From assembly GCA_028015205.1 (NCBI GenBank), contig CM051510.1, positions 31,248,580 to 31,312,579 on the forward strand: a stretch of DNA of 64,000 nucleotides, given 5' to 3'. Below, in pieces: positions 16,818-62,434 of the stretch (the first letter of the stretch is position 1; the number at the start of each line of letters is the position of its first letter). A program made the position numbers and the translations under genes. Source of the stretch: Mytilisepta virgata. Lineage: Eukaryota; Mollusca; Bivalvia; Mytilida; Mytilidae. Below the pieces are notes generated by a model. It saw only the letters and a list, made by a program, of their open reading frames with translations. It did no database searches and was not told the DNA's origin.

Positions 16818-16868
16818 AAAATAATAACAATCCAAAGACACTGATATTGGATATAGTAAATTTATACT

Positions 16869-16915
16869 ATGCTGTATACGACGCATTTCAAGGAGTTTCC
16901 TCTCATCAGCAGCAT
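16869..16915 (-). ncRNA. Type-I hammerhead ribozyme, intact core (locus 1, unit a)
   Basis: Read on the minus strand: stem I 5' strand AUGCUG (16915-16910), core CUGAUGA (16909-16903), stem II GAGG/CCUU with a 5-nt loop, core GAA, stem III AUGC/GUAU (one G-U) with triloop GUC, cleavage residue A17, and stem I 3' strand CAGCAU (16874-16869). All conserved core residues are present and stem I has six pairs. The predicted cut follows the UA of GUAUA. This is the best-formed copy. Self-cleavage is inferred from sequence only. Confidence 0.8.
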
Positions 16916-17244
16916 TAAAACCGAAACTTATAGACCAAAAACCAAACTTATATTAATCAAGAAGTACTCAACCAAAAATACCGAAATAGGAAGCCAAATT
17001 TCAGCTAAGGAGATCTACCATGTGCAATACAAGGAATGAACCCTTAGTTATTTTTATTATTTTTGAATTTTGCTAAATACTGGTAATTTCTGTAACAAAT
17101 CAATGAATAATCATGTCAGACAAGTCTGACGACTGGGTTGGCGAATACCCTCGGGGACCTAGGGTTCACCAGCAGAGGCATCATCCCAGGAGTTTCAAAA
17201 TAACAATCCAAAGATACTTATATTAGATATAGTAAATTTATACT

Positions 17245-17292
17245 ATGCTGTATAACGACGCATTTCAAGGAGTTACCTCTCATCAGCAGCAT
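17245..17292 (-). ncRNA. Hammerhead ribozyme (locus 1, unit b), stem III with one extra base
   Basis: Same stem I (AUGCUG/CAGCAU), CUGAUGA core, stem II and GAAA as unit a. An extra base in the stem III 3' strand (tataacgac on the plus strand instead of tatacgac) puts a bulge next to the cleavage site and should weaken it. Confidence 0.65.
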
Positions 17293-17424
17293 TAAAACCG
17301 AAACATTTTGGAAGACCAAAAACCAAACTTATATTAAACAAGAATTACTCAACCAAAAATACCGAAATAGGAAGCCAAATTTCAGCTAAGGAGATCTACC
17401 ATGTGCAATACAAGGAATGAACCC

Positions 17425-18408
17425 TGACAAATTATTCGTGACCCTGTTACTAGGTCATCACAAACGCAAATCAGTATTAATACCTCGGAATATAAATTCA
17501 TATAGTACTTTAAAATATAAATAATATACCCAATATCTTGAAGCAAAAAAATAATTCTTGAGGGCCAACGACTTCAATAATGAATTAAAAATTATCTTTT
17601 CTTCTAAAAAACTCCAAAATAACTAATTTTCGGCGACTTCCAATATGGTTGTAAACAAAAAGTAGCATGATTTGAGGCATCGAATTTTCCAATATTCTCT
17701 TGGAATGACTGATCGTATTTCCATACTATGAAAAATATGGTTAAATTTTGACCCCGGTAGAGTAAGCATTACACTAATATGTACAAAGTAAAGTCAAGAA
17801 ATACCAAAGGTATATTCGTCAATTTATCTTAAATCCCATGAAAAACCATTCAAGAACGACACTGTCCAAGCTCCTCAGTGGTGTAAACAAAAAAGGGGGG
17901 GAAGACTGAAATGTGAAACATTATTTTCAATAGAAAAGAATTATTATGCTTGTTTGGAAAGAACAAAAATTATTTCAGTACTCGGTATTCCATTTACATT
18001 ACGAATAAGACCCTTATCTAAAACAAACGGAATAAGGAAAGTTATTTATCAAGACTTGGACAGGCAATTTTTTACACACAGAAAAATAAAATAAATTTTG
18101 ATTTTCCAATATATAACACCCTTCCCCACCTTAAGATCTGAATTCTAACGAATTAGAAAAAAACGAAAAGGGGAGTAATCAGATCTTATCAATATGTATA
18201 TACAGAGAAAACATGCAACCAAAAAAAAAAAAAAAAAATAATTATTAAACCTCATGCAAAAAAAATATGATTGTCACTATATGTAAAGTCAAGAAATACC
18301 AAAGGGATATTCGAAGGAGAGAAAAATCGTTACAACTGACAAACTCCGGAGAACAACGAAGACAAGACCAAAACAATACATGCACTACAATTAAAAACTA
18401 AAAACGCC
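17425..18408. other. Repeat-rich stretch upstream of the Tx1-like LINE
   Basis: Contains two copies of gtcaagaaataccaaag (about 17793 and 18290). A 65-bp module at about 18052-18116 (acttggacaggc...aatatataac) recurs at 35811-35874. A segment at 18336-18401 (ctccggagaacaacga...aaaactaaaaac) is shared with 47359-47418. It may include the LINE's 5' untranslated region. A poly-A run is at 18219-18238. No protein gene. Confidence 0.5.
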
Positions 18409-20881: not shown

Positions 20882-23437
20882 ATGTTAAAAAATATACATA
20901 TTTGTACCACGAATGTGAAAGGTTTCAGAGATAAACAAAAAAGGCACAGATTTTATTTGTGGATTAAGAATCAAAAATGTCAAATAATATTCATACAAGA
21001 GAGCCATTTTGACATAGAATTAGAAAATAATTTAAGCATAGAATCGAACTTTAAATATTATTACAGCCATGGAACTAGTTCTAGTAGGGGTGTAGCAATT
21101 CTCAAAGATGAAAATTTCTACTTTAAGTTTATTGACATGCATAAAGATGAAGAAGGGAGAATTTTACTAATAAATATTGAAGTAGAAAATATAATATACT
21201 CATTGATAAACATATACGGACCAAATATTGAATCTAATAGAAATAAATTTTATAAAAAGTAAATGACTTCATAAACAAGCATGCAATTGGAACTCTAATT
21301 ATGGGTGGAGACATGAATGACGCATTGTCCAACCTAGATAGAAAATCTAAAAATAATACTAAAACAGTCAAACCTGTTAATAGTCTAAAAACTTTAATAA
21401 AATCAAATAATTTAATTGATATTTGGCGACAATTAAACCCTAAAAAGATACAATTCACCTGAAAAGAGACAATTATAGTCAAGCTAACCGAATTGATTTA
21501 TTTTTAATAAATAAAGATTTTGTCTTAATGTTAAATCATGCGACATCAGACCAATAATTATAAAAAGCACAGATCATCAAGCTGTCTCATTAAAAATTCA
21601 TAGTGTTGCAGCAAAAAGTAAAGGACCTGGATACTGGAAATTAAATAATTCCATTTTAAGTGAAGTGATTTATCAAAACCAAATTAAGAAGTTGATAAAT
21701 AAATACAACAAACTGATGCAACAAAACAAGATGGATCTTGGTCTACTTTGGGATATGCTCAAGCTAGAAATGGAAGAATATAGCATACAATTTTGTAAAA
21801 ATATAGCAAAAACTAGGAAAAATGAAATAAACATAATAATTTAGAAAGTAAACTAGAAAAAGCATACGAATATAAAGCGAGGGGGGGGCACAAATAAGGT
21901 CAAAACAAGAATGGATTGAAAAAGGAGAAAAAAACAATGCATATTTCTTAGGCTTAGAAAAAAGTAGGCAAACCAAAAAAAATATTTTAAAATTAAAAGA
22001 TGGGAAAGGAAATGTTGTAATAAATCAAGAAAAAATATTAAAAATTGAAAGAGCCTTCTATGAAAAACTTTATTCTGAAGAAAACGAAGAAAACCATGAA
22101 AACTGTTTTGAATACATAAGAGATACTAATTTAAATCATAAACTAACTACGGAAGAAAGCAGTTCTTGTGATGGTTATGTAACTTTAGAAGAATTAACAA
22201 ATGCAATTAACAATCTGAAATCAAATAAAAGTCCAGGCATGGATGGACTAAGTGCAAATTTTTATAAAACATTCTGGCATTTACTGGGGCCTATTTTGGT
22301 CAATATCCTTAACTCAAGTTATGATAAACGAAAACTTCCTTTTTCACAAAGACAGAGTGTATTGAATTTGATATATAAAAAGAATGACCCATTAAACCTT
22401 TCAAATTATAGACCTATCTCCCTTTTAAACACTGATTATAAAATACTTTCCTATACTTTAGCCAATAGAATAAAAAAAGTTTTAAATGCAATCATAAATC
22501 CTGATCAAACAGGATACATTAAAAATAGATATATAGGTTTCAATCTTCGTCAGATACAGGATATTATTGATTATGCAGACCGTTTCAATGTAGAAGGGGC
22601 AATCTTATTTGTTGACTTTTCTAAAGCCTTTGACACACTGAATTGGACTTTTATGTATGAAACACTACAACATTTTGGATTTAATGACTTTTTTATTAAC
22701 TGGATTAAAACACTATATACTGATATAAATAGTTTGGTGATAAATAATGGATGGATTTCAGCCCCTGTGGGAATGCAAAGAGGTATCAAACAGGGATGCC
22801 CATGCTCTTCTATAATTTTCGTAACTGCAGTTGAAATTATGGCAAATCGGTTAAGAAATAATACTAATATTAAAGGAATAGAAATAAAACTGGACGGGAA
22901 AACACATAATCTCAAAATATCACAGTTAGCAGATGATACCACCATATTTTTGAAATCTAAGAAAGAAATACTTACTGCTTAAAACATAATAGAAATTTTT
23001 GGATCATTCTCTGGCCTCAAATTAAATAAAAGCAAGACAGAAGGTATTTGGATTGGAAAACTGAAACACTGTAAAGATAACATAGATAATATAAATTTCA
23101 CAGATAAACCAGTAAAAGTTTTAGGTCTATATTTTGGAGCTAATCAAAAAGAATGTGACTACCTTAATTGGGAAACCAAATTTGATAAAGCCAAAAATTT
23201 AATAAAGTCATGGGAAAAAAGAAATCTAACTCTATTAGGCAAAATACTTATTGTTAAAACTCTTATTATTCCTCAATTTACATATATTGCAAGTTCAACA
23301 GTGCTAAATAAACAGTATGTTGACCTACTAGAAAGAGAAATCTACAAATTTATATGGGATGGTAAAAAGGACAAAGTGAAAAGGAAAACACTGATAGCCA
23401 ACTATGAAAAAGGGGGACTTAAAATGATAGATATAAA

Positions 23438-24309
23438 AAGCTATTTTAAATCTTTGATAGTCAAATGGGTATTAAGGTTGTTAGAATCTACTACAGAAAA
23501 TTGGGCTTTAATACCAAAACAATTTTTTAATAAATATGGGGAAAACTTTCTTATATTTAAAATGAACATAGGTGAACAAAATTTAAAATTAATACAAAAT
23601 ATACAAGAAATCTCAGAATTTTACCTAGAAATTCTAAAATGTTGGATACAAGTAGGAGGTGGAGAAACTAAAATACCCAACAATTTCAGAAATATTAGGA
23701 AAGAAATAATTTGGGGAAATAAAAACATCAAATTCAAAAATAAACCATTAATTATGCTTAACAGGATAAACAGTGGCTTAATTTACATAAATGACATACT
23801 AGATGAAAAGGGAAATATCTCAGAAAATCACATATTTGACACTTTAAAAACAAAGCAGAATTGGATATCCGAAATTACTATTCTTAAACAATCTATTCCT
23901 AAAGATTGGATCAATATTTTAAATACTGAAAATTCCAGAAAAACTATTGTGAATATTAATAACAATAAAATAAGAATAAGAAAAATAGAAATGTCAATAA
24001 AAAACATAAACAATAAAACTATATATAATTTCTTCCTTGCAAATAAAACTGAAGAAAATATTGGGATTGAAAAATGGAAAAACATTTTAAAAACTGACTC
24101 CACGCAAATAGCAAAAACGCTAGAATTTACACATTATATAATAAATCTTAACAAATTCAAGGTTTACAGATGGAAGTTGATTAGCAATATTTTACCAAAT
24201 CAACAAAATCTTTATACATGGAAATTATCTGAAACACCTATGTGTCCTTTATGTAATCTTGCTGACACATACCAACATTTTTTTTAGAATGTAAATTAGT
24301 ATTCAATTT
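23438..24309 (+). repeat. Direct duplication within LINE ORF2, copy 1
   Basis: 872 bp, matching 24382-25252 base for base as far as I could follow by eye, apart from one T in a homopolymer. It covers the region C-terminal to RT up to the Cys/His knuckle and stops abruptly at attcaattt. Confidence 0.9.
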
Positions 24310-24368
24310 AAATGCAATCATAAATCCTGATCAAACAGGATACATTAAAAATAGATATATAGGTTTCA
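24307..24368 (+). repeat. Displaced 62-bp RT fragment between the duplicated copies
   Basis: Identical to 22481-22542 (tttaaatgcaatc...ataggtttca), from the RT core. The junction with copy 1 shares ttt. The junction with copy 2 has about a dozen A/T bases of filler. Confidence 0.9.
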
Positions 24369-24381
24369 TAAAAAAATATAT

Positions 24382-25252
24382 AAGCTATTTTAAATCTTTG
24401 ATAGTCAAATGGGTATTAAGGTTGTTAGAATCTACTACAGAAAATTGGGCTTTAATACCAAAACAATTTTTTAATAAATATGGGGAAAACTTTCTTATAT
24501 TTAAAATGAACATAGGTGAACAAAATTTAAAATTAATACAAAATATACAAGAAATCTCAGAATTTTACCTAGAAATTCTAAAATGTTGGATACAAGTAGG
24601 AGGTGGAGAAACTAAAATACCCAACAATTTCAGAAATATTAGGAAAGAAATAATTTGGGGAAATAAAAACATCAAATTCAAAAATAAACCATTAATTATG
24701 CTTAACAGGATAAACAGTGGCTTAATTTACATAAATGACATACTAGATGAAAAGGGAAATATCTCAGAAAATCACATATTTGACACTTTAAAAACAAAGC
24801 AGAATTGGATATCCGAAATTACTATTCTTAAACAATCTATTCCTAAAGATTGGATCAATATTTTAAATACTGAAAATTCCAGAAAAACTATTGTGAATAT
24901 TAATAACAATAAAATAAGAATAAGAAAAATAGAAATGTCAATAAAAAACATAAACAATAAAACTATATATAATTTCTTCCTTGCAAATAAAACTGAAGAA
25001 AATATTGGGATTGAAAAATGGAAAAACATTTTAAAAACTGACTCCACGCAAATAGCAAAAACGCTAGAATTTACACATTATATAATAAATCTTAACAAAT
25101 TCAAGGTTTACAGATGGAAGTTGATTAGCAATATTTTACCAAATCAACAAAATCTTTATACATGGAAATTATCTGAAACACCTATGTGTCCTTTATGTAA
25201 TCTTGCTGACACATACCAACATTTTTTTAGAATGTAAATTAGTATTCAATTT
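24382..25252 (+). repeat. Direct duplication within LINE ORF2, copy 2
   Basis: 871 bp, near-identical to copy 1, and then continues into the genuine ORF2 end that copy 1 lacks. Copy 2 plus the 62-bp fragment therefore looks like a 5'-truncated, internally deleted second element inserted in tandem. Confidence 0.9.
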
Positions 25253-26039: not shown

Positions 26040-26960
26040 AAAACTAGAAACGTATGAACAACATGGACCCCACCAAAAAACCGGGGGTAGACTCAGGTGC
26101 TCCGGAAGAGTAAGCAGTCTCTGCTTCCTGTAGGACACCCGCCATGGTGCTCATGTCAAATCCGGTATGAGGAAGGGATAATATCAATGGAACAGGTCAT
26201 TTTCATTTGGGAAACGGTTTTTTCATACCTGTCAACCAAGTCATGATGACGCCCATAAAACTTTAATAAGGATGACTTCAGCTTAGGAGTAACGTACCCC
26301 TGTCTGAGCAACTTTTCTGTCAGGAGCCGGGCTCTGTCCAGGAAGTCAATTAATGTATATGTCACAAGCTCTGGAATAACGTATGAGTTGTGAAATATAT
26401 ACTCCATACGCCGGCGCTTCTGGAATATTGCCGCTCAAAAATGGAACGTTGACGATTGGAAAGTCAAAGTCATCCCGTTTGTCGTAAAGTTTTGTATTCA
26501 ACCTTCCTCTTTTGTCAATTTCGAGGTGAAGGTCAAGATAAGATGCAGACTTGGCAGTGTCTGTGGTATCTTTAATTTCGAGCTCATTGGGATAGATGAG
26601 ATGTAAGAAATTCCCAAAACGTGAATTGTTGAGTGATAAAACATCATCTTTGTAGCGGAAGCTGAAATTAAAGGTACGGGCTAACTTCTTTTGTTTTTCC
26701 TTAAGAAGCCCGTCAAGGAAGTCTGCCTCATATGAGTAAAGGAACAAGTCGGCCAGAAGTGGCGCACAATTAGTACCCATAGGAATGCCAATTGTCTGTT
26801 GGAAAACAAGTCCACCAAATTGAACAAATATGTTGTCGATCAAAAATTCAATCATCAGGACAATTTCGTCCTCTGTATATTTTTTGTTAGATTTAGAGTG
26901 GTTTTTAACAAAGTATGATTTATCTCTACCAATGACAAGGTATGTGTATCTGTTGTTGCT
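26040..26960 (-). pseudogene. Penelope-like element: reverse transcriptase C-terminal half plus 3' tail
   Basis: Minus-strand reading begins near 26960 (YLVIGRDKSYF) and runs through EFLIDNIFVQFGG, QTIGIPMGTNCAPLLADLFL and the catalytic box FRYKDDV (26635-26660), then SASYLDLHLEID and KLYDKRDDFDFPIV. A 4-bp insertion near 26352 shifts the frame; the continuation (DFLDRARLLTEKLL...FYGRHHDLVDRYEK) is at 26156-26350. Then comes a tail (about 26040-26155) shared with 47.4 kb and partly with 33.5 and 50.9 kb. The second residue of the catalytic box is Lys where a hydrophobic residue is usual. I assign it to the Penelope-like group from these motifs with moderate certainty. The N-terminal half is missing. 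Confidence 0.7.
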
Positions 26961-27117
26961 ATTTTTATTTTGAAAGCATCGATGGATTAGATGTTATAAT
27001 GTCATTTGTCCATGTCTATCGCAATATGCTGGAATGTTCATCATAATTTGTCCAATATAAAAAAATGTTCTTCTTTTCCTTTTCTAGTTTCAGGCGTAAT
27101 GACAAATGTTCTATTTT

Positions 27118-29060: not shown

Positions 29061-30298
29061 TTAACTCATCTGTTTTATGTACACAGTGACTTGCATATGT
29101 TTCGACAATTGTTTTGTCCATGATGGTATGTTCCTTCCGTGATATAAGGCTAGTCTGTCGATATGATACACCCCTGATGGCTGACGGATGGATCTTTTAA
29201 CTCTGTCAGTTACGTCGTCTATTTTCTTTTCAACAATGTAAGGTCCCTTCCATGGTGAAGTTAATTTTCTATAGACTCCTACTTTGCGTAAAGGCTCATG
29301 TACCCATACAGCTTGTCCCGTTTTAGACATCGTTTTTTAGCTTTCAAGTCATAGTGTATTCCTGATAATTCGCTGCTTGTTTAAGACATTTCCTAGCAAT
29401 TTCATGATTTTCAGTTAATTTATTTTTCAGGTTGATTATGTGTTCGTCGGTATCAGAAAATGGTTTGTCAAGGTTGGATTCTTCAGGAGCGCTAACTACA
29501 GCTTGCATTGGAAGAACATTTTCTCTGCCAAATATCATTGAGTTTGGAGTTTTGGATGTTGACTTGTGTGGTGAAGACCAATATGCTATCGTTACCTGAT
29601 GGAGAAAGTCGTCCCATGTAATTTGATTTTTTCTCACAATACATTGTTAACATAGCTGTTAATGTTCTATTGTATTTTTCTACTGCGCCGTTGGATTGAG
29701 CTGTTAATGTTCTGTTGTATTTTTCTACTGCGCCGTTGGATTGTGGTCTATAACTGGTTGTCCTTGTCTTGTCGATGCCAAATATTTCGCAGATTTGTTT
29801 GAAGAGCTCAGACTCAAAATTTCTCCCCGTGTCTGTATGAAGTTGTAGTAGTGTTCCAAGCCTGCATATAAAGTTGTCGATTAATGCGTTAGCCACTATA
29901 AAGCTCTCCTGCGATGGTACATGTATGACAACGGCTTCAGTCCATTTAGTAAAGGTATCCATGATAACAAGTATGTAACGATTACGGTGCATAGTTAAAG
30001 GTAGTGGTCCAAGTATGTATACCGATATCCCCTCCATCGGTTCTCCAATCTGGTAAGTGGACATTTGTGCTTCATTTTTTAGTTTCCTTGCAAAACATCT
30101 GTCGCACTCCCTGCAGAAAATTTGTATATACTCTTTCATGCCTGGCCAATAAATCTTTGCAACTGTTTTTTCAGTACTCAAATGTCCTGCTGTTGGGATA
30201 TCGTGATGATATTTCAGTACTTCTGTTATCTTTTGTTTTGGCAAAACAAGCTCTAATTTTGACTCATTGCTACCCTCAATTTCCCATCTTCGATACAA
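29061..30298 (-). pseudogene. Ty3/gypsy integrase with duplicated catalytic-Glu segment
   Basis: The zinc-binding region has HHDIPTAGH...CRECDRC (H-H-C-C). The core has MDTFTKWTEA (first Asp), HTDTGRNFES (second Asp) and NGAVEKYNRTL (Glu). A 45-bp in-frame duplication (29654-29743) repeats QSNGAVEKYNRTLTA, so the catalytic Glu motif is present twice. After a frameshift near 29637 the core continues (ITWDDFLHQVTIAYWSSPH...). After another the C-terminal part at 29061-29330 has WKGPYIVEKK, a GPY/F module, and a terminal stop. Confidence 0.85.
29654..29743. repeat. 45-bp tandem duplication in integrase
   Basis: Two adjacent copies (29654-29698, 29699-29743) differing at one base (ttctattg / ttctgttg). 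In frame. Confidence 0.95.
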
Positions 30299-30434
30299 TA
30301 TTCAATTGTTCAATTCCAGCCTATCCCATTGGCTCCACAGTGCCTTCAACTGTGTTCGTCTTGCAGAAATACTTTCCCAGGTTGGTCGTTTCATTAGATC
30401 GCTTTCTTTTGCAACCATGACAGGGCCAATATCC

Positions 30435-31196
30435 TCATCTGACAATTGCAGTTGCCTCACATTTGATGACTCCCATCCTATGAGAAGTTGACAGTTTTTC
30501 GTTTTTGGTTGGTTGTTTACTCCTAGTTATTGCCCTTATATCTCCTTGAGTTTGCTTCTCTGTGTCAACTGTAGTGAGCTGTTTCTGACTGATTCTGCTG
30601 ACACCTGGTAATTGTTTTTCAGCACTGTTTGTTGGAGCTTCATCTTTTTTATCAAAATTATGGTACTTGACAAGGTTGCAAGTTTTTAGTCTCCTTGTTT
30701 CAATTGGTTTATTTTCTTTGACCAATTTCTCTGTTTTTAACTCTGCGGTATCATTTTCATTTAGCTTTTCTTGTCTTTGACAGGCTTTGCCAGGTGCCCG
30801 GCTCAATGCGTCGGCATTACTGTGGCTTTTTCCAGCACGATCTGCTATTCTCATATTATAGGTCCCATGTATCTGCAACCATCTGGCAACTTGACCTGAC
30901 GGGTTTTTCAGACTTTTTAACCAACTGACGGCTGCATTATCAGTGCGCAGGAGTATTTCTTGGCCATAAAGATAATGATGGAAATTTTTGAGTGCAACAA
31001 CAGCCAATAGTTCCTTTCGTGTGGTGCAATATGATTCTTCGTGCGTGTTCAGTGCTTTGATCGTGTAGACAATAACGTGTTCTTTGCCATTAATTTCTTG
31101 TGACAAAACTGCCCCGACTGCAACGTTGCTGGCATCCGTATCAACGAAGAATTCTCTTCCATCGGTCAGATAGTTCAGTATTAATGGGCTAATCAT
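30435..31196 (-). pseudogene. Ty3/gypsy RNase H and following linker
   Basis: Motifs in order: FFVDTDASNVAVGAVLSQ (first Asp), TTRKELLAVV (Glu), LLRTDNAAVSWL (Asp) and HSNADALSR (C-terminal Asp/His box). The segment is open from 31196 to 30435. The later part is a hydrophilic linker towards the integrase. It degrades the RNA strand during reverse transcription. This is the best-preserved domain of the element. Confidence 0.85.
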
Positions 31197-31264
31197 TGCC
31201 TGTTTTAGGTTCTGGAAAGAATTTTCACATTCATTCGTCCAGTTAAACTTTGTGATTTTCTAGC

Positions 31265-35875: not shown

Positions 35876-38336
35876 AATATCATGAAAATAAAATATCGAA
35901 CAGAAAATGTCATTTCACGATATGTTAAACTTTTTCAGTTGTTTTTATATTTGATAGCATTTAAAGTTGTGATATGACAATATTCTTGTTATGATTTTTT
36001 TAATTAAAATTTTGTGAGTTCCTTACTTTTTTCTATCGCAGTTGACGAAGTTCAAGTCATACTGAATTACACAAAGAAAAAAAACAAACTTTCCACAAAA
36101 TATGTATAGCCATTACAATTGGAAAGCGTTGATTAACATCACCCACAATTTTATAAGTGGAAATATTGATTAGTCAGTGCTCTATACCTCTTTGATAATA
36201 TAATCGTCCATGCGACATAAGACAGTGCTTGAACAGAACAGTTTTTTGCGATGAATTAACAAGAAGTAAAGTCAAGAAGTTAAATAATAAAGTTGAATAT
36301 TTTAAAAACTCCTCCCTTGCATAAGAAGCTGAGAAGAAAAATCAAAATTATCTCCCTTGGCGAATTAAGCTGAGGTAGATAACCGATTTTTGTTTGTTTC
36401 TCTATCTCATTATCCCATTAAAATCTTCTGGATATAATGTAAAGGGGTAAAATTATTCCAGCAGGTAATTTATTTAACTTGGTTAAAAGTAGGTAGGAGT
36501 TACCACTGCCATTTGACAGAAGATTGGTCTTGTGTCATTGATATACAAAGAGAATTTATCATATTGATGTTGCCATTTCATTTGTTATGTATCCCATTAA
36601 ATTCTTATGGACAATATTTTTTTGTCAGATCTGTCAGTATGAAATCTTTATTTGTTAAACTTTCTAAGTGTAATAATCATTTCTACTGGTGCTATGTTAA
36701 TACATGTATATTGGATAATTTTAGGATACTGAATTTTTTATGCTTCTAAAAGTGATTTTATATCCTGTTCAGAACACTTAGAAAAACAGAGAACCTTAGC
36801 AACTGATTTCTTGATGAAAAAAAATCTGTATTTTACTACAATTCTTTTTATATCAAATAATAATTAGATAGGTCTTTTAATGTCAACATAGTTCAAACTC
36901 TCTGAAACAAAACTTGCAGGAATTCTGCATTTTAATATGACTTGCTTCTAACACTTTCATTTAAATTAAATATGGATATTTTGATTCCAACGTCACATAG
37001 GTTTGTTTAGCAGTGTCATAAGAAAGTTTTCTACAAGCTTTAACCACAACATTGTATAACTTGCTTTGTGTAATGGCATGTTCGTGTCTGTATTATTCCA
37101 AAATGTTATAGAAACTTTTGCTCATGGCAACTTATTTGTCATAAAGAGCCTACCCATGGTAATATCGGGACATTTTGAAGTTTTAATCATTTGCAGATGT
37201 AGTCATAAAAGTCATATGAACATTTTCCCTAAAAGGATGACCTTGCATCTTCATGTGCAACAGACAAATGCCATCTGAACAATTTAGATTAGATTTTAGT
37301 GTGATTGTCTTTTAATAACACTGCCATTTCACTAGTTTTTTAGGTTACGAATTTAATACTTTAAATGTAGAAATTATTGCTAGTCTTAGAAAATCAGCAA
37401 TAAAGTATAGATAATTATTGTGATTCATGTACAATTATTAAAAGAAATCACAAGAAAAAAAATTATTATGCAAGTTTGAATAATTGTGATACCTCATCAT
37501 GTGGCATTTTTGTTGCTAATAGAAACATCAAATTAATTTTTAAATTTACACATAAAATATTGTGAAATAAAAGTTTTTTGTAGGGATAAATAAGAATTAT
37601 TCTTTTAACTTAAACTTCAGAACCCTTTTAATGCATTTATTATTGGTGTACTTTATGGGATGGAATAAAACAAGCAAAATTCAAAATGTGACCATCATCT
37701 TGTCACATTTATACCATTAATAAAAAGATCACATTAAATTCTTAATTACACCTTATACACAATGTATAAGAAACAAGGATTCTGATTGGTTGATAGTAGA
37801 ATATTTTTCTCAAATCATCTCGGTTTTCCTTCATTGATTAAAAGGGGGGTTTTTGTCATGTGAATTTGTCCTTTTTTACCAACTGCAGAGGGGTAATTGC
37901 AAAACATTTTCCTTTGAGTTGAATACTTAACGTCTTTATCATCACTGCATTTTAATAAATGATATTCGGTGTAATTATGCAGATACATCACAAACAGTAA
38001 AAATATTTGGTCGCTGTAGTCTTGAGACTAAATATCCCTCGACTGGCAGCTTGGCATATCATACTACCACTTAAAAATTATTTTTTGCAAATACCCCTCC
38101 TTATCATGTTTAGAATATATTTTTTGATTGAACAATTTCTTTGATTGATAAAAACCTCGAAATAGAATTTTAAGAAATTTTAGAAATTTGCATTTATGGT
38201 GTTGTATAAAATGGTGTTAAATTAATTTGTTATCATCGGTGCTATGTAAATAGATTTAATATTTTGAAAGATTCTTGATTTTTTTGATGCTTATAAAAAT
38301 GTTTTAGTGTATAGCCTGCTCAAAACTTTTTAAAAT
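35876..38336. other. Intergenic, no gene supported
   Basis: 2.4 kb of AT-rich sequence with short hydrophobic open readings (for example 36513-36749) lacking family features or good splice contexts. Confidence 0.4.
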
Positions 38337-38458
38337 AACAATCCAAAGATACTAATATTAGATATAGTAAATATATACTATGCTGTATACGACACATTTC
38401 AATGAGTTACCTCTCATCAGCAGCGTTAAAACCGAAACATTTGGAAGACCAAAAACAA
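38337..38458 (-). mobile_element. Retrozyme-like element, 5'-truncated single copy (locus 2)
   Basis: Same family as 16.8 kb. In sense orientation it begins within the ...tttttggtcttccaaatg region and ends at the common ggattgttatttt 3' end. Contains a degenerate hammerhead (38380-38426). Confidence 0.75.
38380..38426 (-). ncRNA. Degenerate hammerhead (locus 2)
   Basis: Core CUGAUGA and GAAA are present, but one stem I pair is lost (cagcgt instead of cagcat on the plus strand), stem II has a mismatch (caatgag) and stem III has a change (gacacat). Probably inactive. Confidence 0.55.
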
Positions 38459-38870
38459 TTCTTGTAATTCAATTCATAAAATATTTTTTTAATGAAACCT
38501 TTTCTTTTCAATCTAACATTCAACTGAGATTTGGAAAGTAGTGTACATAAAGATATACATGTATGTCAACAGTTTATTTGTAATTTCTTTTTTGATGACA
38601 TTTGATGGCATTTACTTAAGACATTAATGAATCATGGTTAATTATACAGTAAAATAAAAATGCTGAAACATCAATGATTGAAAATTCCTTGTTTTTTTTG
38701 TTCATTTGTCTAATGACAACATTTTGGTGTCCTTTTTAAAATTATTAACATAACACATTTCATTCTGTGATTTCGGCAGACATATTTTTATTGCCATTTA
38801 TATGTTATAAAAATGTACTATCCAATATTTCTAATTTGTTCTGTATTTTAGTTCAATGTACTAAAAATAA

Positions 38871-38912
38871 AATAACAATCCAAAGATACTAATATTAGAT
38901 ATGGTAAATATA
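38871..38912 (-). mobile_element. Retrozyme 3'-end fragment (locus 3)
   Basis: Only about 40 bp of the family's 3' end (aacaatccaaagatactaat on the plus strand), the shortest 5' truncation seen. Confidence 0.65.
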
Positions 38913-40932: not shown

Positions 40933-41363
40933 TTATCGTAGTAACCAACCTGAAAAAGAGGGTTTGCCACGCCTATCACTATAAATACTTCCAGATCCAG
41001 AAATAATTCGAACAAAGACCACATCTCCCCGAGAGACATGCGCAACGACAGTTCCGCTTACAGAACTATCGTTACTGGATGTGGCATACAGGTAACTTGT
41101 TCCATATACTGCATTGTTGATCATCAGGTCTGTGGCATGACCAGAATTATACATACGAATGGTCCAAACAAACACATAAACACCGTCAGTTGGAGCAGTA
41201 AAAACACCTGTTACGCCGTTATAACCGCTTCCATAATTTGATGTAATGACATCAAATATAAGCGTATGTCCAGGACCCGGATTAACTGTATTCGCAGACA
41301 TCTGTGCATAAAAAGCAACGATTCCTTCGGTACCAATATTACCACGTGGAATAAGCAATCGTA
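40933..41363 (-). CDS. C1q gene A, exon 2 (C1q domain)
   Basis: 431 bp from a phase-1 acceptor to TAA. Contains the conserved aromatic and Gly positions of a C1q head, including FxGxxL-type ending FSGWLL. Confidence 0.92.
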
Positions 41364-43493
41364 CTGGAACAAAAAATGAAAACATCTTACATTATACAGT
41401 TCTTCTAGGATTCCATTCAGTGTCTATCAATTATTCAAATTTCTCGCTTAGTTGTGTTCAGAAAACAATTTTATTTGATATAACTAAATTGTCAATGAAC
41501 ATATATTTCAATAGAGCGACAGTATCCGACCAGCAGCTATGTTTTGTTTGTTTAGTTGGGGTTTTACGCCGTTTTCAGCACATTTGGCTATTTCGCGGAG
41601 GCCAGTTTTTATTGGTGGAGGAAGCCGGAGTACCCAGAAAGAACCACCGACCTCCGGTAGCAGCAGCTATGAGAGCATTCGCCAATTTTACTGTTAAAAA
41701 GAGCAGATTCCAACCATGCTATCTAAATTATATAATGTCCAACGAATTGTTTAATTTCTAGTAAGTAATCACTTTATTGGTAATCATACTGTATACTGGT
41801 CTTTATAGTATGTTTTATCCTTCAATCATGTAATCTTCTGACCTAATAAGGGGGACGAATAAATTTCAATGTTATTATGTCAATGACCAAATAAACTATT
41901 AAGCCCCGTCCATTAACCAGAACCTCGTGTGACCAACATTTACAACGGGACGGCTATGTATTGCAAAAACAATTCAAATTAGGAAAAAATTTAGGGGATA
42001 CTGTATAGCATTTTATCAGCTGCCGACGTAAACCGCAAATTGAGTTTACCTGGCGATATTTGCGATGGTAAAACCATCGGTTTATGTCGGCAACTGATAA
42101 AATACAATACAGTTATCCCCATTCTAATGCAACCTCCGTTAAACGTTAAAAAATAGAATAAAAAGTAAACAGGAAACGTCAAATGCGTTTGCGCAACGTT
42201 GTCGTCAATGGTTCCGACGGTAAACCGTGGGTTTTACGCTTGACGTTATCCAATCAAAAAGGACGTTATATGTTATGTTGCATTAGAATATGTAATTGAC
42301 TTTATTTTATGCTGTTTTCTGTCTTATTTCATAATGAATATAAAAAATACTTTGCACTTGTATAGTTGTCGTCATGATTTACAGGGAATTGTTTCACGCG
42401 GAAGAACAAAATCCCGTGTTTGTAAACAGTGCTTGATATTTAATTACACCAAGCTGTGAGGTACCTCACGGGATTCAATTGTTAGAAAAAAATATTTATC
42501 CATTGAAGAAAAATATGTCCCCTTCATAAATTGCAGGATAAAGACAACATTGATACCTTGGCTTTGAATAAAGAATTTATTTGGACTCGGCACGAAACTG
42601 GGGAAAAGACTCACTGAAAGCTCGTCTTTTCTTCAGTTTCTAAGACTCATCCAAATAAATTCTGTATTCAAAGCCAAGGTATCAATATTGTATATTTATA
42701 CACAAGAGTGTCATGATAGATAAATGATTTGGGTACCCACAAAACCGGTTTAACCCCACCCCTGTTGAGGGTCTGTACCAAATCACACTATCCAGACTCT
42801 GTTGTGTTTATCTTTGTGATTTGTGCACTTTTATGTTATCTTCTGTCTGAAAATCTATCTGTTGGGTGGCATTCATGTTTATCCAATGTTGTTGTTTATC
42901 TACTTGCCAATGAACTATTATTGGATAAAATGCTGTATATAACAATGAAAGGGATAAACATCCATGAAAATACAACCCTGAAACGGACACTAAACAAATA
43001 ATATTTAATGTTATATTCAAAATGTACAGTTACCTTTTCTTTTCACGGGGAAATGGCTATTCCTCTTTACTTTATGTCCACCTTTAGGAAAATTCTCTGA
43101 ATTAGTCTGATATCGTGATGCCTCTATACCATTACTCTTTTCGTCTTTCGCCGATTTAGCGACCTCATGGTGCAGTTGCAACATTTTTATTCGACCGTCA
43201 AGTTCGTCTATGTATAGACCTTGTTTGTTTTTGGACAACTTTAACTCATCAATAAATCTCTTGTTGATAGTCACTTCATGTCGAAGACCAAATATTTCTT
43301 TCTCCTGCGATTCAACTTTACTCTGAAGAACAGTGATTATTTCATTTTGTGCATGGACTTCTTTCTCTAGAGATTGTACTGTTATTTTCAGTCCCCGAAT
43401 TTCATTCAGGATCAGCTCCATGTTCTGTTGAGTAAAATCTGAACAGTCAGATAGAACAGGTAACAATATCAACACACATATTTGAAGGACCAT
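40933..43493 (-). CDS. C1q gene A: secreted coiled-coil + C1q-domain protein
   Basis: Two coding exons on the minus strand. Exon 1 (43034-43493) starts MVLQICVLILLPVLSDCSDF, a signal peptide. A heptad-rich coiled coil (about residues 25-110) and a basic linker ending PVKRK follow. Donor AAAAG|gtaact, phase 1. Exon 2 (40933-41363; acceptor tgttccag|TACG) encodes VRLLIPRG and then a complete C1q domain of about 130 residues (GIVAFYAQ, HTLIFDVI, GVFTAPTDGVYVFVW, DSSVSGTVVAHV, GKPSFSGWLLR*). Two exons give about 296 residues. The coiled coil should drive trimerisation and the C1q head should bind ligands; related bivalve proteins act in innate recognition. Compared with genes B and C the head lacks the AGDG loop. 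The 1.67-kb intron carries several repeats. Confidence 0.92.
41538..41672 (+). repeat. SINE-like dispersed repeat in C1q gene A intron
   Basis: Sequence ggggttttacgccgttttca...ttcgcggaggccag...ggaggaagccggagtaccca, GC-rich against its surroundings. It matches a repeat I associate with molluscan genomes. It is not established here as tRNA-derived; no A or B box was identified. Confidence 0.5.
41994..42290. repeat. Nested foldback palindromes in C1q gene A intron
   Basis: Arms 41994-42035 and 42078-42120 (ggggata...taaaccg / cggttta...tatcccc) are inverted, about 38 of 42 bases matching, with further short stems inside (cgcaaat/atttgcg; gatggt/accatc). A flanking pair attctaatgcaac (42121-42133) / gttgcattagaat (42278-42290) forms a second inverted repeat. 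Likely one or two MITE-like inserts. Confidence 0.75.
42544..42691. repeat. 148-bp foldback in C1q gene A intron
   Basis: Arms 42544-42585 and 42650-42691 (gataccttggctttgaata / tattcaaagccaaggtatc) are inverted with about 39 of 42 matches. The interior also folds (gaaactg...aaaagac / gtctttt...cagtttc), so nearly the whole element is one hairpin. Confidence 0.85.
42722..42905 (+). repeat. Dispersed repeat (same family as 4.9 kb)
   Basis: ccggtttaaccccacccctg...ggtctgtaccaa matches 4935-4985. Companion module copies are at 41767-41815 and 43838-43890. Confidence 0.6.
43034..43493 (-). CDS. C1q gene A, exon 1 (signal peptide and coiled coil)
   Basis: 460 bp, 153 codons plus one base. Heptad-like pattern from about residue 25 (LILNEIRGLKITVQSLEKEV...). 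No collagen repeats, so this is a collagen-free C1q-like protein. A TATA-like TATAAA lies 107 bp upstream of the ATG. Confidence 0.88.
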
Positions 43494-43605: not shown

Positions 43606-45182
43606 AATCAAAACCATTGCAAAATTAGAATTTAAGATGTAAAACATAATCAAAATTTCCTCATGCAGAAGGAAAATACGTGAACATTTATCTGTATTAA
43701 AATACTTCACGATCAGTTTCGAATGCATTGTGCCTTGATTAAGTATTGTGTCATATTTCTTTTTATTTGAAAACGAACCCACACCCATTTTTCATCCTCT
43801 TGCTAAACAAAACCACGTTGCCATTTCTATAGGAAACGGTCATCTTGTTGGTAACCATACTGTGTTTGCCTTTGTAGTGTTTTATTTTCCAGGGAGCATA
43901 GATAAGTTGATAATTGGGTATCATTAAAAACTGTTTAAACCAACCAGAATTAAAAGTCAGTAAAAAGGCAGACCATGGAAACATTTCTCTTTCTTCCTTT
44001 CTTTGACTCAGTAACTACAATCCAACATGTTCATACGGCATATTTTCCACCGGGCATTTTCCTCTGAAGGCCAGTGTTTATTTCCTTTCATGCAGTAATT
44101 TTTTGCTCTAGAAACTGCACTGTTATTTTCACATCTGGATTTTTATTTAGGATTTGCCCAGATTTTCAGTACAGTAAACTGTAAACAGCCAGATACAGGA
44201 AGCATAATGAACTCGTATTTTGGTTTTCTCTTTTAATCAGTCAAGGCGTAGCTTCCATTGAGGCAGTGAGGCAAAGGCTTCACCTTAAGTTTGACAAAAC
44301 ATTTTTCCTGCCAAACAAACTTTTTAATCCAATAGAAAACATGCATATAAGAAACTCTTAGAATCAATACTTTATTAGGTTGGAAAATGTTACTTAATAC
44401 CGACACAGGTGTGTAAACCTTATTTCATTTTCATACTCATGCTTTCTTTTCCAAATGAAATGTGCAGATTTTATTTGCTATTTGAGAGGATCCAGATGTT
44501 GGAAGAGCGAAACGTTCATAACAACTAAAGAGATCAAAAATACCAAAAAAAAAGTTTTATAGAATTTTTTAAAGGCAAAAAACGTCCCACAACACAATTT
44601 AAAAAAAAGTTTATACGAGATAAGAAATCTATATGCTGGATTATTTCTTGAGACAAAATCGCTACATACATATGGTTTCTTTTATTGCATTTGTTCTTCG
44701 TAATGGAGTAGGGCCATATTCCCCTTATCTGTGTTCCCTTCGATCTTGTTCAAAAAGTCTCCTAATGCCTTTCAAAATATACAAGGACATGGCCTTTTCT
44801 TCAGATCTGTTAATAATACCCACCTTTAATAAATAACTTGAAATATAGTCCATCTCAAAACATATCTTTGGGGCACAGTTTTAGCACTAATTTTGGGTTT
44901 TTAATGAAAGAGTTTATAACACCACAGTCAGTTGAAAGCAAAGTAATTTTTTTTGCGATACTTTACATAATATCCTCTTTTATGTAACAGTAAAATGGTT
45001 TTGAGTCTGAATATATCCTTCCAAAAAATATTACAAAAAACAATATAAACTGGTGAACATTTGACTAAAACTACCGCTTTTCATGCACGAACTTTAAACG
45101 TTTTAAATTATCAGTTATGAGGGAAACAAATACAAGCCATATTGGCTCTACTCCTTTTAAAATTACAGTGAGGCATTACAAA
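43606..45182. other. Intergenic between C1q genes A and B
   Basis: One repeat module at 43838-43890; otherwise nothing recognised. Weak open readings without family features. Confidence 0.4.
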
Positions 45183-45227
45183 AAAACAATCCAAAGATAC
45201 TAATTTTAGATATAGTAAATTTATACT

Positions 45228-45274
45228 ATGCTATATACGACGCATTTCAAGGAGTTACCTCTCATCAGCAGCAT
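45228..45274 (-). ncRNA. Hammerhead ribozyme (locus 4, unit a)
   Basis: Core CUGAUGA, stem II GAGG/CCUU with loop UAACU, GAA, stem III AUGC/GUAU with loop GUC, A17, and stem I AUGCUG/UAGCAU in which the pair next to the cleavage site is G-U instead of G-C. Otherwise intact. Confidence 0.75.
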
Positions 45275-45605
45275 TAAAACCGAAACATTTGGAAGACCAA
45301 AAACCAAACTTATATTAAACAAGAAGTACTCAACCAAAAATACCGAAATAGGAAGCCAAATTTTAGCTAAGGAGATCTACCATGTGCAATACAAGGAATA
45401 AACCCTTAGTATTTCTATTATTTTTGAATTTTGCTAAATACTGGTAATTTATGTAACAAATTAATGAATAATAATGTCAGACAAGTCTAACGACTGGGTT
45501 GGCGAATACCCTCGAGGACCTAGGGTCCACCAGCAGAGGCATCATCCTAGGAGTTTCAAAATAACAATCCAAAGATACTAATATTAGATACAGTAAATTT
45601 ATACT

Positions 45606-45652
45606 AAGCTGTATACGATGCATTTCAAGGAGTTACCTCTCATCAGCAGCAT
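45606..45652 (-). ncRNA. Hammerhead ribozyme (locus 4, unit b)
   Basis: Core and stem II intact. Stem III loop is AUC instead of GUC. Stem I has one mismatch (aagctg on the plus strand in place of atgctg). Confidence 0.7.
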
Positions 45653-45741
45653 TAAAACCGAAACATCTGGAAGACCAAAAACCAAACTTATATTAAACAA
45701 GAAGTACTCAACCAAAAATACCGAAATAGGAAGCCAAATCA

Positions 45742-46368: not shown

Positions 46369-46808
46369 TTAGTGTAATAACCATCCGGAGAAAGATGGAT
46401 AACCATTACTATCACTCCACACAAAACCATCACCAGCATACGCGGAATGGATCTGAACATACACCTTTTCACCTTGCGAAACATATGCAACCACGGTCCC
46501 GCTTACTGAACTGTCGTCATTGTTTTTAGCTCGTAGAAAAGTAGTTCCATAGACTGCGTTATTTATCTTCAAGTCCGTGGAATGTTCGCCGTTGTGAATG
46601 CGAACCACCCATACAAATACATAAACTCCGTCCTGTGGAACGGAAAATATTCCAGAAGCTGCGTTGTAGCCGTTTCCGTAATTCGTTTTGATGACGTCAA
46701 ATATAAGGGTATGTTGAGCTACTGGGTTTACGGTGTGCTTAGACATTTGGGCATAAAAAGCAACAATTCCCTCTGTACTGGGACCAGCGGTTGGTATAGC
46801 TAATCGTT
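46369..46808 (-). CDS. C1q gene B, exon 2 (C1q domain)
   Basis: 440 bp, phase-1 acceptor to TAA. Complete head domain. Confidence 0.92.
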
Positions 46809-48301
46809 CTGGGGATGAAACAAAGACAAATTGAAATTGAAAACTTGATTAAATTTAAGTTAAGATATAAATTGTTAAGTTAAGATAAAATGTTCCTTAT
46901 AAATAAGCAATAAATACTAGTATATTGATGACAAACTCCTGGCTTTACTTACTTTTGTAAATTTTAAATAATTATCAGGTGTGTTCTTAAATAAACATTA
47001 TTCAAAGTTTTGGAAACAAATTTACACCAAACATATCAGCAATAGTGACTTCATAATATGGACATCTAAAATATGTAGAAGGCAACTGATAATTAATTAA
47101 CAAAAACAAAAAGTTACACTTTTAACTGACATATTAAAGTCATTTATAGATATGCCCAAAAAACACTTGCATATCACAGAGACATGATGTAGGTGATGTT
47201 TGTTTTGTATGCCATTTAAAGTACTTTAGGAAATAGTCAGCCGATTAAAAACCGATTTTAAAATGCTTGAATGATGAATCAAATTTATTATTTATTGTTT
47301 TGTCTTTACACTGAGAACAAGTATTTTATATAGAAGAAATATATAAGTATAAAAACATACTCCGGAGAACAACGAAAAGACCAAAACAATACAGACCCTA
47401 CACTTAAAAACTAAAAACATATGAACAACATGAACCCCACCATAAAAACCGGGGGTAGACTCAGGTGCTTCGGAAGAGTAAGCAGTCTCTGCTTCTTGCA
47501 GGACACCCGTCATACTGCCCATGTCAAATCCGGTATGAGAAGTGGACAACATCAATGGAACAGGTCCATATTCATTTAGGAAACGGTTTTTTCATACCTG
47601 TCAGCCAAGTCATGATGACGTCCATAAAACTTTTATAAGGATGACTGCAACTTACGAGCAACATACCCCTGTTTGAGTAACTTTTCTGTCAGGAGCCGGG
47701 CTCTGCTCAGGAAGTCAATGTATATGTCACAAGCTCTGGAATAACGTATGAGTTGTGAAATATACACTCCATATTGCCGCTCAAAAATGGGAAATTGACG
47801 ATTAGAAAGTCAAAGTTTATGAGAGTTACCCTTCCGAATAACATGGTTATTGTCCAGTTTCTTCTGTGCCTTCTCTCCAGCTGAAATGTATTTTCTCTTC
47901 ACGTTGTCTATAGGCTCCAATGTATCATTTCGGACTGTATGGGAGATATATGTAATGTGGTTTTTCAAATGGTTTGCTGTCGGTGTTTGGTTACCATGTT
48001 CCAGTACTTCATTTTCATCCGTTCTTCCTTTTTCAAGCAACATGTCGTCAATTCTTTTCTCCTGGCCAATGACAGTCTGTTGGAGATTCATGATTTTTTC
48101 ATGTTGCACCCCCACTGTTTGTTGAAGGTCAATAATTAGTGTGTTTTGTACTTTCACAGTGTTTTGTAACAAGTCTATCATTTTTCGGAAACTTTTAAAC
48201 TCTTTTGCAAGTGCAAGTGTATCGATTTTGTCATCTACAAGCTTTCTACCTGCGTTGTGAGGTACTAAGAGAATAATTCCAAATATTGTCAGGAAAAACA
48301 T
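46369..48301 (-). CDS. C1q gene B: secreted coiled-coil + C1q-domain protein
   Basis: Exon 1 (47830-48301): signal peptide MFFLTIFGIILLVPHNAG, a coiled coil with repeated LQQTV heptads (about residues 35-90), then a basic linker ending NNHVIRKG. Donor AAGG|gtaact, phase 1. Exon 2 (46369-46808; acceptor catccccag|AACG): ERLAIPTAG then the C1q head (GIVAFYAQ, HTLIFDVI, GIFSVPQDGVYVFVW, RAKNNDDSSVSGTVVAYV, AYAGDGFVW, GYPSFSGWLLH*). Total about 304 residues. The head is closer to gene C than to gene A. Same orientation and exon plan as its neighbours, so it arose by tandem duplication. A Penelope-like fragment abuts the exon 1 donor. Confidence 0.92.
47360..47816 (-). mobile_element. Penelope-like 3' fragment inserted beside the gene B splice donor
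   Basis: Matches about 26040-26480: the RT C-terminus (SRACDIYIDFLSRARLLTEKLL in a frame without the 4-bp insertion seen at 26.35 kb) plus the tail. Its sense 5' edge is at about 47816, some 13 bp inside the intron from the exon 1 donor at 47829. Strongly 5'-truncated. Confidence 0.8.
47830..48301 (-). CDS. C1q gene B, exon 1 (signal peptide and coiled coil)
   Basis: 472 bp, 157 codons plus one base. A TATA-like ATAAAAG lies about 35 bp upstream of the ATG near 48332, which would imply a very short 5' UTR; uncertain. Confidence 0.88.
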
Positions 48302-48384: not shown

Positions 48385-48505
48385 GAAACCTAACAATGTC
48401 ATTAGATATCTAAGATGCGGTATGTGCGTCATAAATATTTATTTATGCTCTATATTTAGGACGCACATGCCGCGTCTTAGATATCTAATGACATTGTTAC
48501 GTTTC
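48385..48505. repeat. Palindrome with 46-bp arms upstream of C1q gene B
   Basis: Arms 48385-48430 and 48460-48505 are inverted copies with about 41 of 46 matches (caatgtcattagatatctaa / ttagatatctaatgacattg), spacer 29 bp. The near edge is 84 bp upstream of the ATG, in the presumed promoter. Confidence 0.9.
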
Positions 48506-51255: not shown

Positions 51256-51695
51256 TTAATGCAAGATCCAGCCCGAAAAAGACGGATGACCGTGCTCGTT
51301 ACTAAGCACAAGACCATCTCCTGCGTACGTAGAATGAATACGGACAAACACAACGTCTCCTTGATTGATTTGTGCAACCACGACTCCACTTACGGAACTA
51401 TCATCACCGTTTTTAGCTCTCAGAAACGTTGCACCATACACTGCATTGTTGATCATAAGTTCGGTTGGATGTTCACCAGCTGAAATTCGAATGACCCACA
51501 CAAAAACATATACACCATCTCTTGGAGCTGTAAAAACGCCAGTTGCCTTATTGTAGGCTTGACCTACATTCGTCTTAAGGATGTCAAATATTAGCGTCTG
51601 ATGTACCCCAGGATTGTTCGTAGTAGCAGACATGTACGCATAAAACGCGATGACCCCGTTAGATTCTGCGTCTCCACTTGGAAGCAGTACACGTT
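51256..51695 (-). CDS. C1q gene C, exon 3 (C1q domain)
   Basis: 440 bp, phase-1 acceptor to TAA; same length as gene B exon 2. Confidence 0.92.
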
Positions 51696-56392: not shown

Positions 56393-56620
56393 GATATTCC
56401 AGTATCTTGTTTATGTAGTGGCCTTCACACTATTATTATCTAAACAGGCCAATATATTGACTTATTGTGAATCTTTATCTATGGAAATCTCAAATTAAGG
56501 CGTATCTCCCTCGTACAATGCTCTGTGCGTAGATGCTTTTTGCTTTTGCTTTTTTCATTTTGGAATTTGCTCTTAAACCTTTTGGATTGTTGTTTTGGTT
56601 GTCAACATTTTTGGCCTTGA

Positions 56621-56666
56621 GCACAACTGATGGGTCGTAAATCGACGAAATGTGCGTATCTTGTGC
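56621..56666 (+). ncRNA. Hammerhead-like ribozyme, second family, A9-to-G change
   Basis: Plus strand: stem I GCACAA (56621-56626), core CUGAUGG (conserved CUGAUGA with its last A changed), stem II GUCG/CGAC with loop UAAAU (56634-56646), GAA, stem III AUG/UAU with loop UGCG (56650-56659), cleavage residue C at 56660, and stem I 3' strand UUGUGC (56661-56666). Stem I extends past a single bulged A by UUGA/UCAA. All three stems form; the single core change would reduce or abolish cleavage. Confidence 0.6.
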
Positions 56667-61995: not shown

Positions 61996-62434
61996 TGCGT
62001 CGTATACAGCATAGTATAAATTTACTGTATCTAATATTAGTATCTTTGGATTGTTATTTTGAAACTCCTGGGATGATGCCTCTGCTGGTGGACCCTAGGT
62101 CCCCGAGGGTATTCGCCAACCCAGTCGTCAAACTTGTCTGATATGATTATTCATTGATTTGTTACAGAAATTACCAGTATTTAGCAAAATTCAAAAATAA
62201 TAGAAATACTAAGGGTTCATTCCCTGTATTACACATGGTAGATCTTCTTAGCTGAAATTTGGCTTCCTATTTCGGTATTTTTGGTTGAGTACTTCTTGTT
62301 TAATATGTTTGGTTTTTGGTCTTCCAAATATTTCGGTTTTAATGCTGCTGATGAGATTTAACTCTTGAAATGCGTCGTATACAGCATAGTATAAATTTAC
62401 TGTATCTAATATTAGTATCTTTGGATTGTTATTT
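61996..62434 (+). mobile_element. Retrozyme-like element (locus 5), opposite orientation
   Basis: Sense on the plus strand. It starts at tgcgtcgtata (61996), 11 bp before the predicted cleavage position, spans one 375-bp monomer to the next hammerhead cleavage position (62381/62382), and continues to the common 3' end ggattgttattttg (62434). Confidence 0.8.
62342..62387 (+). ncRNA. Hammerhead ribozyme (locus 5), stem II weakened
   Basis: Stem I AUGCUG/CAGCAU, core CUGAUGA, GAA, stem III AUGC/GUAU with loop GUC and A17 all intact. Stem II (gatttaactctt) has lost pairs relative to the other copies. Confidence 0.7.

Follow-up and report, generated by a model that had tools for sequence, protein, structure and literature searches.

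A hammerhead retrozyme of Mytilisepta virgata has a fixed internal 3' end and is probably copied by primed reverse transcription of circular or multimeric RNA

The window, a 64-kb stretch of Mytilisepta virgata DNA that is part of contig C3, contains one non-coding unit of 375-379 bp which, by sequence comparison, was found inserted at five places. The initial annotation had reported a common sequence at 16.8, 38.3, 38.9, 45.2 and 62.0 kb, and the repeat was indeed present at all five, with copies 91-100% identical to the 45.2-kb unit. The ribozyme strand is minus at 16.8, 38.3 and 45.2 kb and plus at 62.0 kb. The 16.8-, 45.2- and 62.0-kb insertions each consist of a truncated unit followed by a full unit (379, 378 and 375 bp, respectively), which bears out the two unit ends claimed for these loci; the spacing, given as 375-378 bp, was revised to 375-379 bp for full units and 376-381 bp at 16.8 kb depending on the measuring point. 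At 16.8 kb (minus strand), a first unit truncated to unit position 152 at its 5' end (17197-17425; by eye, one extra base in stem III of its hammerhead, core at 17286) is followed by a full unit (16823-17196) with a complete hammerhead at 16869-16915, and by a tail (16818-16822) in which an extra ATTT(T) unit follows GTTATT. The 38.3-kb insertion is a single 5'-truncated copy of 125 nt (38332-38456, minus; unit 254-378) with mismatches in stems I and II (by eye, 38420), and the 38.9-kb insertion is a 44-nt 3'-end copy (38869-38912, minus; unit 335-378) without a ribozyme. At 45.2 kb (minus), a first unit truncated to position 197 (45558-45739; stem I mismatch by eye, 45646) precedes a full unit with a complete hammerhead (45180-45557; core at 45268), and at 62.0 kb (plus) a first unit starting inside the ribozyme at position 314 (61996-62060) precedes a full unit in which the hammerhead core is present and stem II is broken (62061-62435; by eye, 62348). 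The G+C content of the unit is 34-36%, the longest stop-free stretch in three units is 73 aa, and no LTR, primer-binding site or polypurine tract was seen in the unit by eye.

Several other features of the window were recorded. LINE-type reverse transcriptase (RT) reading frames lie at 21876-25237 (+) (Pfam RVT_1, with zf-RVT slightly below its cut-off), and much of 22983-24287 recurs at 24266-25237. An RT-like fragment at 26349-26993 (-) (..QTIGIPMGTNCAPLLADLFL..RYKDDV..), Penelope-like by eye only, had no Pfam match, a weak NCBIfam match to a group II intron RT (E 0.0014) and no relative in the viral contig collection. Integrase and RNase H fragments of an LTR retrotransposon were found at 29495-31259 (-), and three reading frames with a C1q domain at 40936-41391, 46372-46848 and 51259-51708 (-). 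Long hairpins at 48391-48499 and 42534-42704, matching microRNA models below cut-off, are possibly small inverted-repeat DNA transposons, while a 447-bp unit present twice at 100% identity (54130-55023) is a recent duplication or an assembly artefact.

The minus strand of 16869-16915 is predicted to form a type I hammerhead on the basis of its sequence, a fold descriptor and a full-length, sub-cut-off match to Rfam RF00163. Stem I (AUGCUG/CAGCAU) is followed by CUGAUGA, stem II (GAGG/CCUU, with a G-U pair adjoining the core), GAA, stem III (AUGC-GUC-GUAU) and an A that precedes the cut, predicted between 16875 and 16874. GUC had been read as closing stem III; it is instead the stem III loop, and the cut falls after the A of ..GUAUA. 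A dimeric hammerhead with a palindromic stem III, in which GUC would be the cut triplet, was ruled out by inspection, because stem I would then not abut the cut. The CTGATGA...GAAA core is found in six copies of the window, four of them with a stem lesion. A complete fold had been ascribed to each full unit, and two of the three have one: only the copies with cores at 16909 (-) and 45268 (-) combine stems I, II and III of 6, 4 and 4 bp, and the 62.0-kb unit does not. Of the cuts proposed earlier, 16875/16874 on minus and 62381 on plus fit the fold, and 62006 was dropped: with its start at 61996, within the ribozyme, that copy has no catalytic strand.

The fold descriptor matched twice in the window and never in 150 simulated 64-kb windows. 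The covariance-model check suggested for the hammerhead did yield a match, but only below the Rfam cut-off: searched in 131 bases alone, Hammerhead_1 (RF00163) aligned end to end with 16869-16915 (-) at 15.5 bits (E 0.3 over 4227 families), where the cut-off is 34 bits. An Rfam scan of the whole window returned nothing at the gathering threshold and no hammerhead among its 10 matches up to E 10. RNA folding recovered the hammerhead as the optimal fold in none of six sequences, the one unit folded was of ordinary stability (z -0.90; 21 of 100 shuffles fold as well), and among 68 distinct sequences no stem pair had changed on both sides. Across a larger set of copies, described below, 142/151 units had an intact core, and each of the 43 keyed arrays that cover it had one or more such units.

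The repeat is abundant in the genome (1.03 Gb in 109 contigs, of which C1-C14, 37.6-129.9 Mb each, make up ~946 of 1,034 Mb). The 14 large contigs agree with the n = 14 of mussels, and the three C1q reading frames of the window likewise fit a bivalve. An exact 35-nt hammerhead stretch occurs 7,737 times (3,926 forward, 3,811 reverse), compared to zero for the same pattern backward, and among the 100 matches listed the copies are scattered over many separate places. No match was found to the hammerhead pattern in a viral contig collection or to a 21-mer in a genome contig collection. A genome run of Rfam Hammerhead_1 scored 73 of 120,184 first-look candidates and listed 34 matches with E no higher than 10, of which six exceeded the cut-off; matches were likewise obtained in 11 of 14 control genomes, none of them above it. 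All 12 of the genome matches that we examined were other hammerhead elements, ten belonging to one ~200-bp family (GCACAACUGA..) and the remaining two (L072, L078) to a different kind. The lowest listed genome score, 21.6 bits, exceeds the 15.5 bits of the window copy, so that a standard hammerhead search can easily miss the retrozyme family.

We compared 43 insertions, made up of the five in the window plus 38 loci taken from among the matches listed for a 613-base query; this sample is biased to long copies. The 3' end lay at unit position 373-378 in all 42 insertions with a visible 3' end, and at 376-378 in 40 of them, ~54 nt beyond the ribozyme cut between positions 324 and 325. A second sample, drawn against the length bias, took the first 20 separate places on C1, in map order, from the list of exact hammerhead-pattern copies. 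Here the 3' end was at 376-378 in 19/20 (L083 ends at 240), and 16/20 consisted of one continuous piece no longer than roughly a unit, the other four being in two or three pieces; because this sample holds the hammerhead by design, its 5' starts are not a free sample. In the main sample, the 5' starts of 40 insertions were spread over the unit in a manner compatible with a uniform distribution (KS p 0.24), and none fell within 2 nt of the ribozyme cut. Unit length across insertions was ~371-385 bp; many copies were shorter than one unit, with extremes of 44 nt and 24.6 units (C9:46913310-46922608).

The outer 3' ends differ from the internal junctions. Extra ATT(T) units followed the terminal GTTATTTT in 8/41 parsable outer ends, compared to 24/731 control positions, and by eye a further insertion outside the 41 (L065) also has an extra ATT+ unit. 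Internal junctions were of three forms, ATTTT|GAAAC (98), ATTTTA|AAACT (8, from L041 and L042) and ATTTC|GAAAC (1), and none of these 107, out of ~115 junctions, caught by the search pattern had extra ATT+ units, suggesting that inner borders were read through rather than primed. No target-site duplication was detected in 40 insertions, either within 20 nt (direct 4.18 versus 4.19 permuted; inverted 4.38 versus 4.24) or within 100 nt (7.2 versus 6.86 permuted, sd 0.26). The 5' flank of one insertion, L091 (C1:2657175-2658610), contains a further scrap resembling the unit near positions 74-85, as if the template had jumped.

The course of the copies through the unit constrains their template. 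A cut linear monomer would start at position 325, and synthesis from 378 could yield only 54 nt of it. Copies instead pass through the cut site in 39/40 insertions, the exception being the 44-nt piece at 38.9 kb, which means that this bond was intact in their template, whether a circle or an uncut multimer. We then compared units within arrays; the 43 insertions correspond to 45 keyed arrays, since the 16.8- and 62.0-kb insertions of the window were keyed as two arrays each, and neither of these two is among the 39 arrays with at least two units. On average, 2.59 rare variants were common to a pair of units from the same array, compared to 0.09 for random pairs between arrays, and rare variants were common to an array's units in 32/39 arrays. 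The seven arrays without any were L040, L041, L047, L051, L057 (whose two units are 98.8% identical), L060 and the 45.2-kb array of the window. In two-unit arrays, the truncated and the full unit had at least one private or rare variant in common in 11/17 cases, and two long arrays, of 23 and 14 units, were each 99.8% homogeneous. An uncut multimer could also give such homogeneity, as could exchange or conversion at a later time. One seven-unit array, L064 343-2759 (C14), has two diverged unit types in strict alternation, corresponding to either a two-unit circle or a higher-order repeat.

Variants common to all array units that cover a site (founder variants) most likely passed through the array's template, while single-unit variants, mostly arisen after insertion, served as the yardstick. 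The 47-nt hammerhead held 2 founder and 88 single-unit variants, compared to 101 and 370 elsewhere (Fisher p 1e-6), and the result held without CpG sites (1/76 versus 97/350, p 9e-7). Per site, founder variants were rarer in the hammerhead (0.0011 versus 0.0096) and single variants were commoner (0.048 versus 0.035). Among 332 windows of 47 nt along the unit, the four lowest p-values were for those starting at 283-286, the hammerhead itself occupying 284-330. A bootstrap over the 39 arrays gave a difference of -0.173 (CI -0.253 to -0.104), and the depletion was found separately in young (18; p 0.003) and old (21; p 0.0004) arrays. The fold is preserved by both founder changes in the hammerhead, A302G in loop II and C316U, which produces a U-G pair in stem III. 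Positions 21-100 were depleted too (8/80, p 0.01), indicating that the hammerhead is not the sole constrained part, and 101-283 and 331-360 showed an excess; the last 18 nt had 0 founder versus 14 single-unit variants (p 0.08, not significant alone). In these counts a subfamily variant that several arrays have inherited is scored anew for each of them, and later changes could look common to all units of an array if conversion has spread them. Depletion of variants in the copying lineage makes the hammerhead unlike a decayed coincidence and is evidence, at the level of sequence, for ribozyme function that does not depend on expression data.

By its identity the repeat is a non-autonomous, non-LTR retrozyme and an ordinary member of that class, and the initial annotation was right to propose a retrozyme family: it is tandem and dispersed, 375-379 bp long and 34-36% G+C, has a type I hammerhead, and has neither a long open frame nor, by eye, an LTR. 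It is like the animal non-LTR retrozymes in its type I hammerhead, units within 150-450 bp, dimers to multimers, G+C below 50% and absence of ORF and LTR. Published retrozyme circles are stable, highly self-paired RNA, and animal retrozymes have optional target-site duplications, over 4 bp when present (PMC7229834); here, in contrast, no duplication was detected in 40 insertions and the one unit folded was not unusually stable. The closest counterpart is the retrozyme of Mytilus galloprovincialis, apparently from the same animal group, for which the accessible text of Cervera and de la Pena 2020 (PMC7229834; MN642551-MN642576) describes ~5000 type I hammerheads in two similar families with repeats of ~350-390 bp. 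Those hammerheads lack most loop-loop nucleotides and cleave at ~0.1 per minute, and the circRNA is abundant on blots. Likened by description (low-GC tandem type I repeats in thousands of copies) rather than by sequence comparison, the Mytilisepta repeat is probably of the same family, or orthologous. This kind of element is therefore already published from a mussel, and what is added here is many-copy evidence on the copying mechanism: the fixed 3' end, tail and founder structure are not described in the accessible part of PMC7229834, and we found no description of a fixed 3' end or founder structure for any animal retrozyme in the open-licence PMC literature. Plant LTR retrozymes are also non-autonomous, hammerhead-bearing and associated with circular RNA, but are described as having a type III hammerhead, LTRs, PBS/PPT, 4-bp target-site duplications and lengths of 600-800 nt (PMC4918200, PMC7229834). 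The hammerhead satellites of newt and axolotl similarly form tandem units of ~330-350 bp with a type I motif, but have a weak stem III and are reported to be efficient only as dimers (PMC7229834), whereas stem III is 4 bp here.

We consider it quite likely that the retrozyme is copied by primed reverse transcription of an RNA circle or multimer from a fixed internal start. Tandem copies would be transcribed and the hammerhead would cut the RNA after ..GUAUA, with unit-length RNA then presumably closed into a circle, as reported for the mussel retrozyme (PMC7229834). The RT of another element would start at a fixed internal site, unit position 378 (..CTTTGGATTGTTATTTT), which lies 54 nt past the cut, and priming would take place at T- or ATTT-rich DNA. 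The enzyme would run around the template, circle or uncut multimer, for anything from 44 nt to 24.6 units, stopping anywhere. Insertions made in this way should have a constant 3' end, a variable 5' end and units descended from a single founder. The fixed 3' end, scattered 5' ends, seamless internal junctions, founder structure of most arrays and depletion of founder variants in the hammerhead are observed directly in the copies, while we infer the circle as template, the priming and the identity of the enzyme. A route from primed circRNA to tandem cDNA, with Penelope-like elements (PLEs) as strong candidates, was proposed in PMC7229834; a review from the discoverers' laboratory states that animal retrozymes have no conserved motif from which to deduce the mobilising element (PMC7761336, in its accessible part). 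By analogy, a Penelope-like RT is a plausible enzyme and preferred over that of a LINE, because the anole PLE Poseidon is reported to start internally, downstream of its hammerhead, after cutting AT-rich 5'-ATT-3' sites on both strands (PMC11167929). The retrozyme resembles Poseidon in combining a hammerhead and a downstream internal start with ATT-rich targets and partial tandems, and differs in that the PLE encodes an RT/GIY-YIG protein, whereas the retrozyme unit has no long frame; the start lies 85-92 nt past the cut in the anole element (start 111-118, cut 26 nt into the ORF) and 54 nt past it here.

For the same retrozyme, the template could instead be a linear multimer, transcribed from a donor array and left uncut, with ribozyme-made circles a by-product. 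In the anole PLE, insertion in vitro is reported to persist when the hammerhead is mutated, with uncut RNA as the main substrate (PMC11167929), which speaks against a need for cutting, and the copies analysed here establish no more than an intact cut-site bond in the template. The depletion of founder variants in the hammerhead implies, however, that cutting matters, and young arrays have few unit-specific variants though the units of older arrays differ by several percent; we regard an uncut template as rather unlikely. An ordinary satellite, expanded by unequal crossing-over and dispersed by chance with the hammerhead as a passenger, might account for the 24.6-unit array on C9 and for the A/B alternation of L064, which is like that of higher-order repeats, but would leave unexplained the constant 3' end of 42/42 and 19/20 insertions, the 16/20 copies at most about one unit long, the tails at 8/41 ends, the 7,737 exact hammerhead copies, in many separate places among the 100 matches listed, and a depletion specific to the hammerhead. 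We hold this explanation to be extremely improbable.

Conceivably, too, an autonomous Penelope-like element has this unit as its terminal pseudo-LTR, and the copies are truncated insertions of that element. PLEs carry hammerheads, form partial tandems on insertion and have their reverse transcription start downstream of the ribozyme (PMC11167929). A further link comes from the second, ~200-bp hammerhead family of this genome, which often has TTTGGATTGTTGTTTT or a close variant ~45 nt before its hammerhead: one of its 11 copies (L068) has a 17-mer, TTTGGATTGTTATTTTG, in common with the retrozyme 3' border (1/2000 shuffles reach 17). The other ten have at most 11 nt in common with that border, and beyond the 17-mer the unit has no homology to the second family, profile searches scoring below shuffles. 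In the multi-unit insertions that we examined, units also adjoin directly, with no coding sequence between them, so neither the unit, which has no long frame, nor its junctions provide RT/GIY-YIG coding capacity. A pseudo-LTR origin appears improbable.

The second family, a possible lead to the mobilising element, is also represented in the window, at about 56496-56695 (+), by a ~200-bp copy (GCACAACUGAUGGGUCG...) with a damaged core (CTGATGG), which was absent from the Rfam scans of the window; it carries TTTGGATTGTTGTTTT, close to the retrozyme 3' end. Homology between the unit and this family upstream of the ribozyme was considered and is not claimed: in Smith-Waterman comparisons with five copies, 0, 3, 15, 31 and 70 of 300 shuffles reached the observed score, and the profile searches that fell below shuffles used 5 and 11 copies. 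No RT reading frame was recognised by eye upstream of six further Rfam hammerhead matches. At L069 1-690 (C11:89276700), a retrozyme insertion ends ~35 nt before a second-family copy in the same orientation.

Returning to copying by primed reverse transcription, we tentatively extend it to a broader relationship, possible though short of an even chance, in which animal retrozymes would be to PLEs what SINEs are to LINEs. A PLE enzyme would load the ribozyme-made circle at ..CTTTGGATTGTTATTTT, 54 nt past the scar, and copy it over successive circuits at a nicked, ATTT-rich target; arrays would thereby be written in one event, and L064 would record a two-unit circle. The fixed RT start offers a concrete handle on the mobilising element, as retrozyme RNA can be assayed with purified PLE or LINE enzymes. 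The founder test, in turn, provides a sequence-only assay of ribozyme use in genomes that could extend to other hammerhead repeats.
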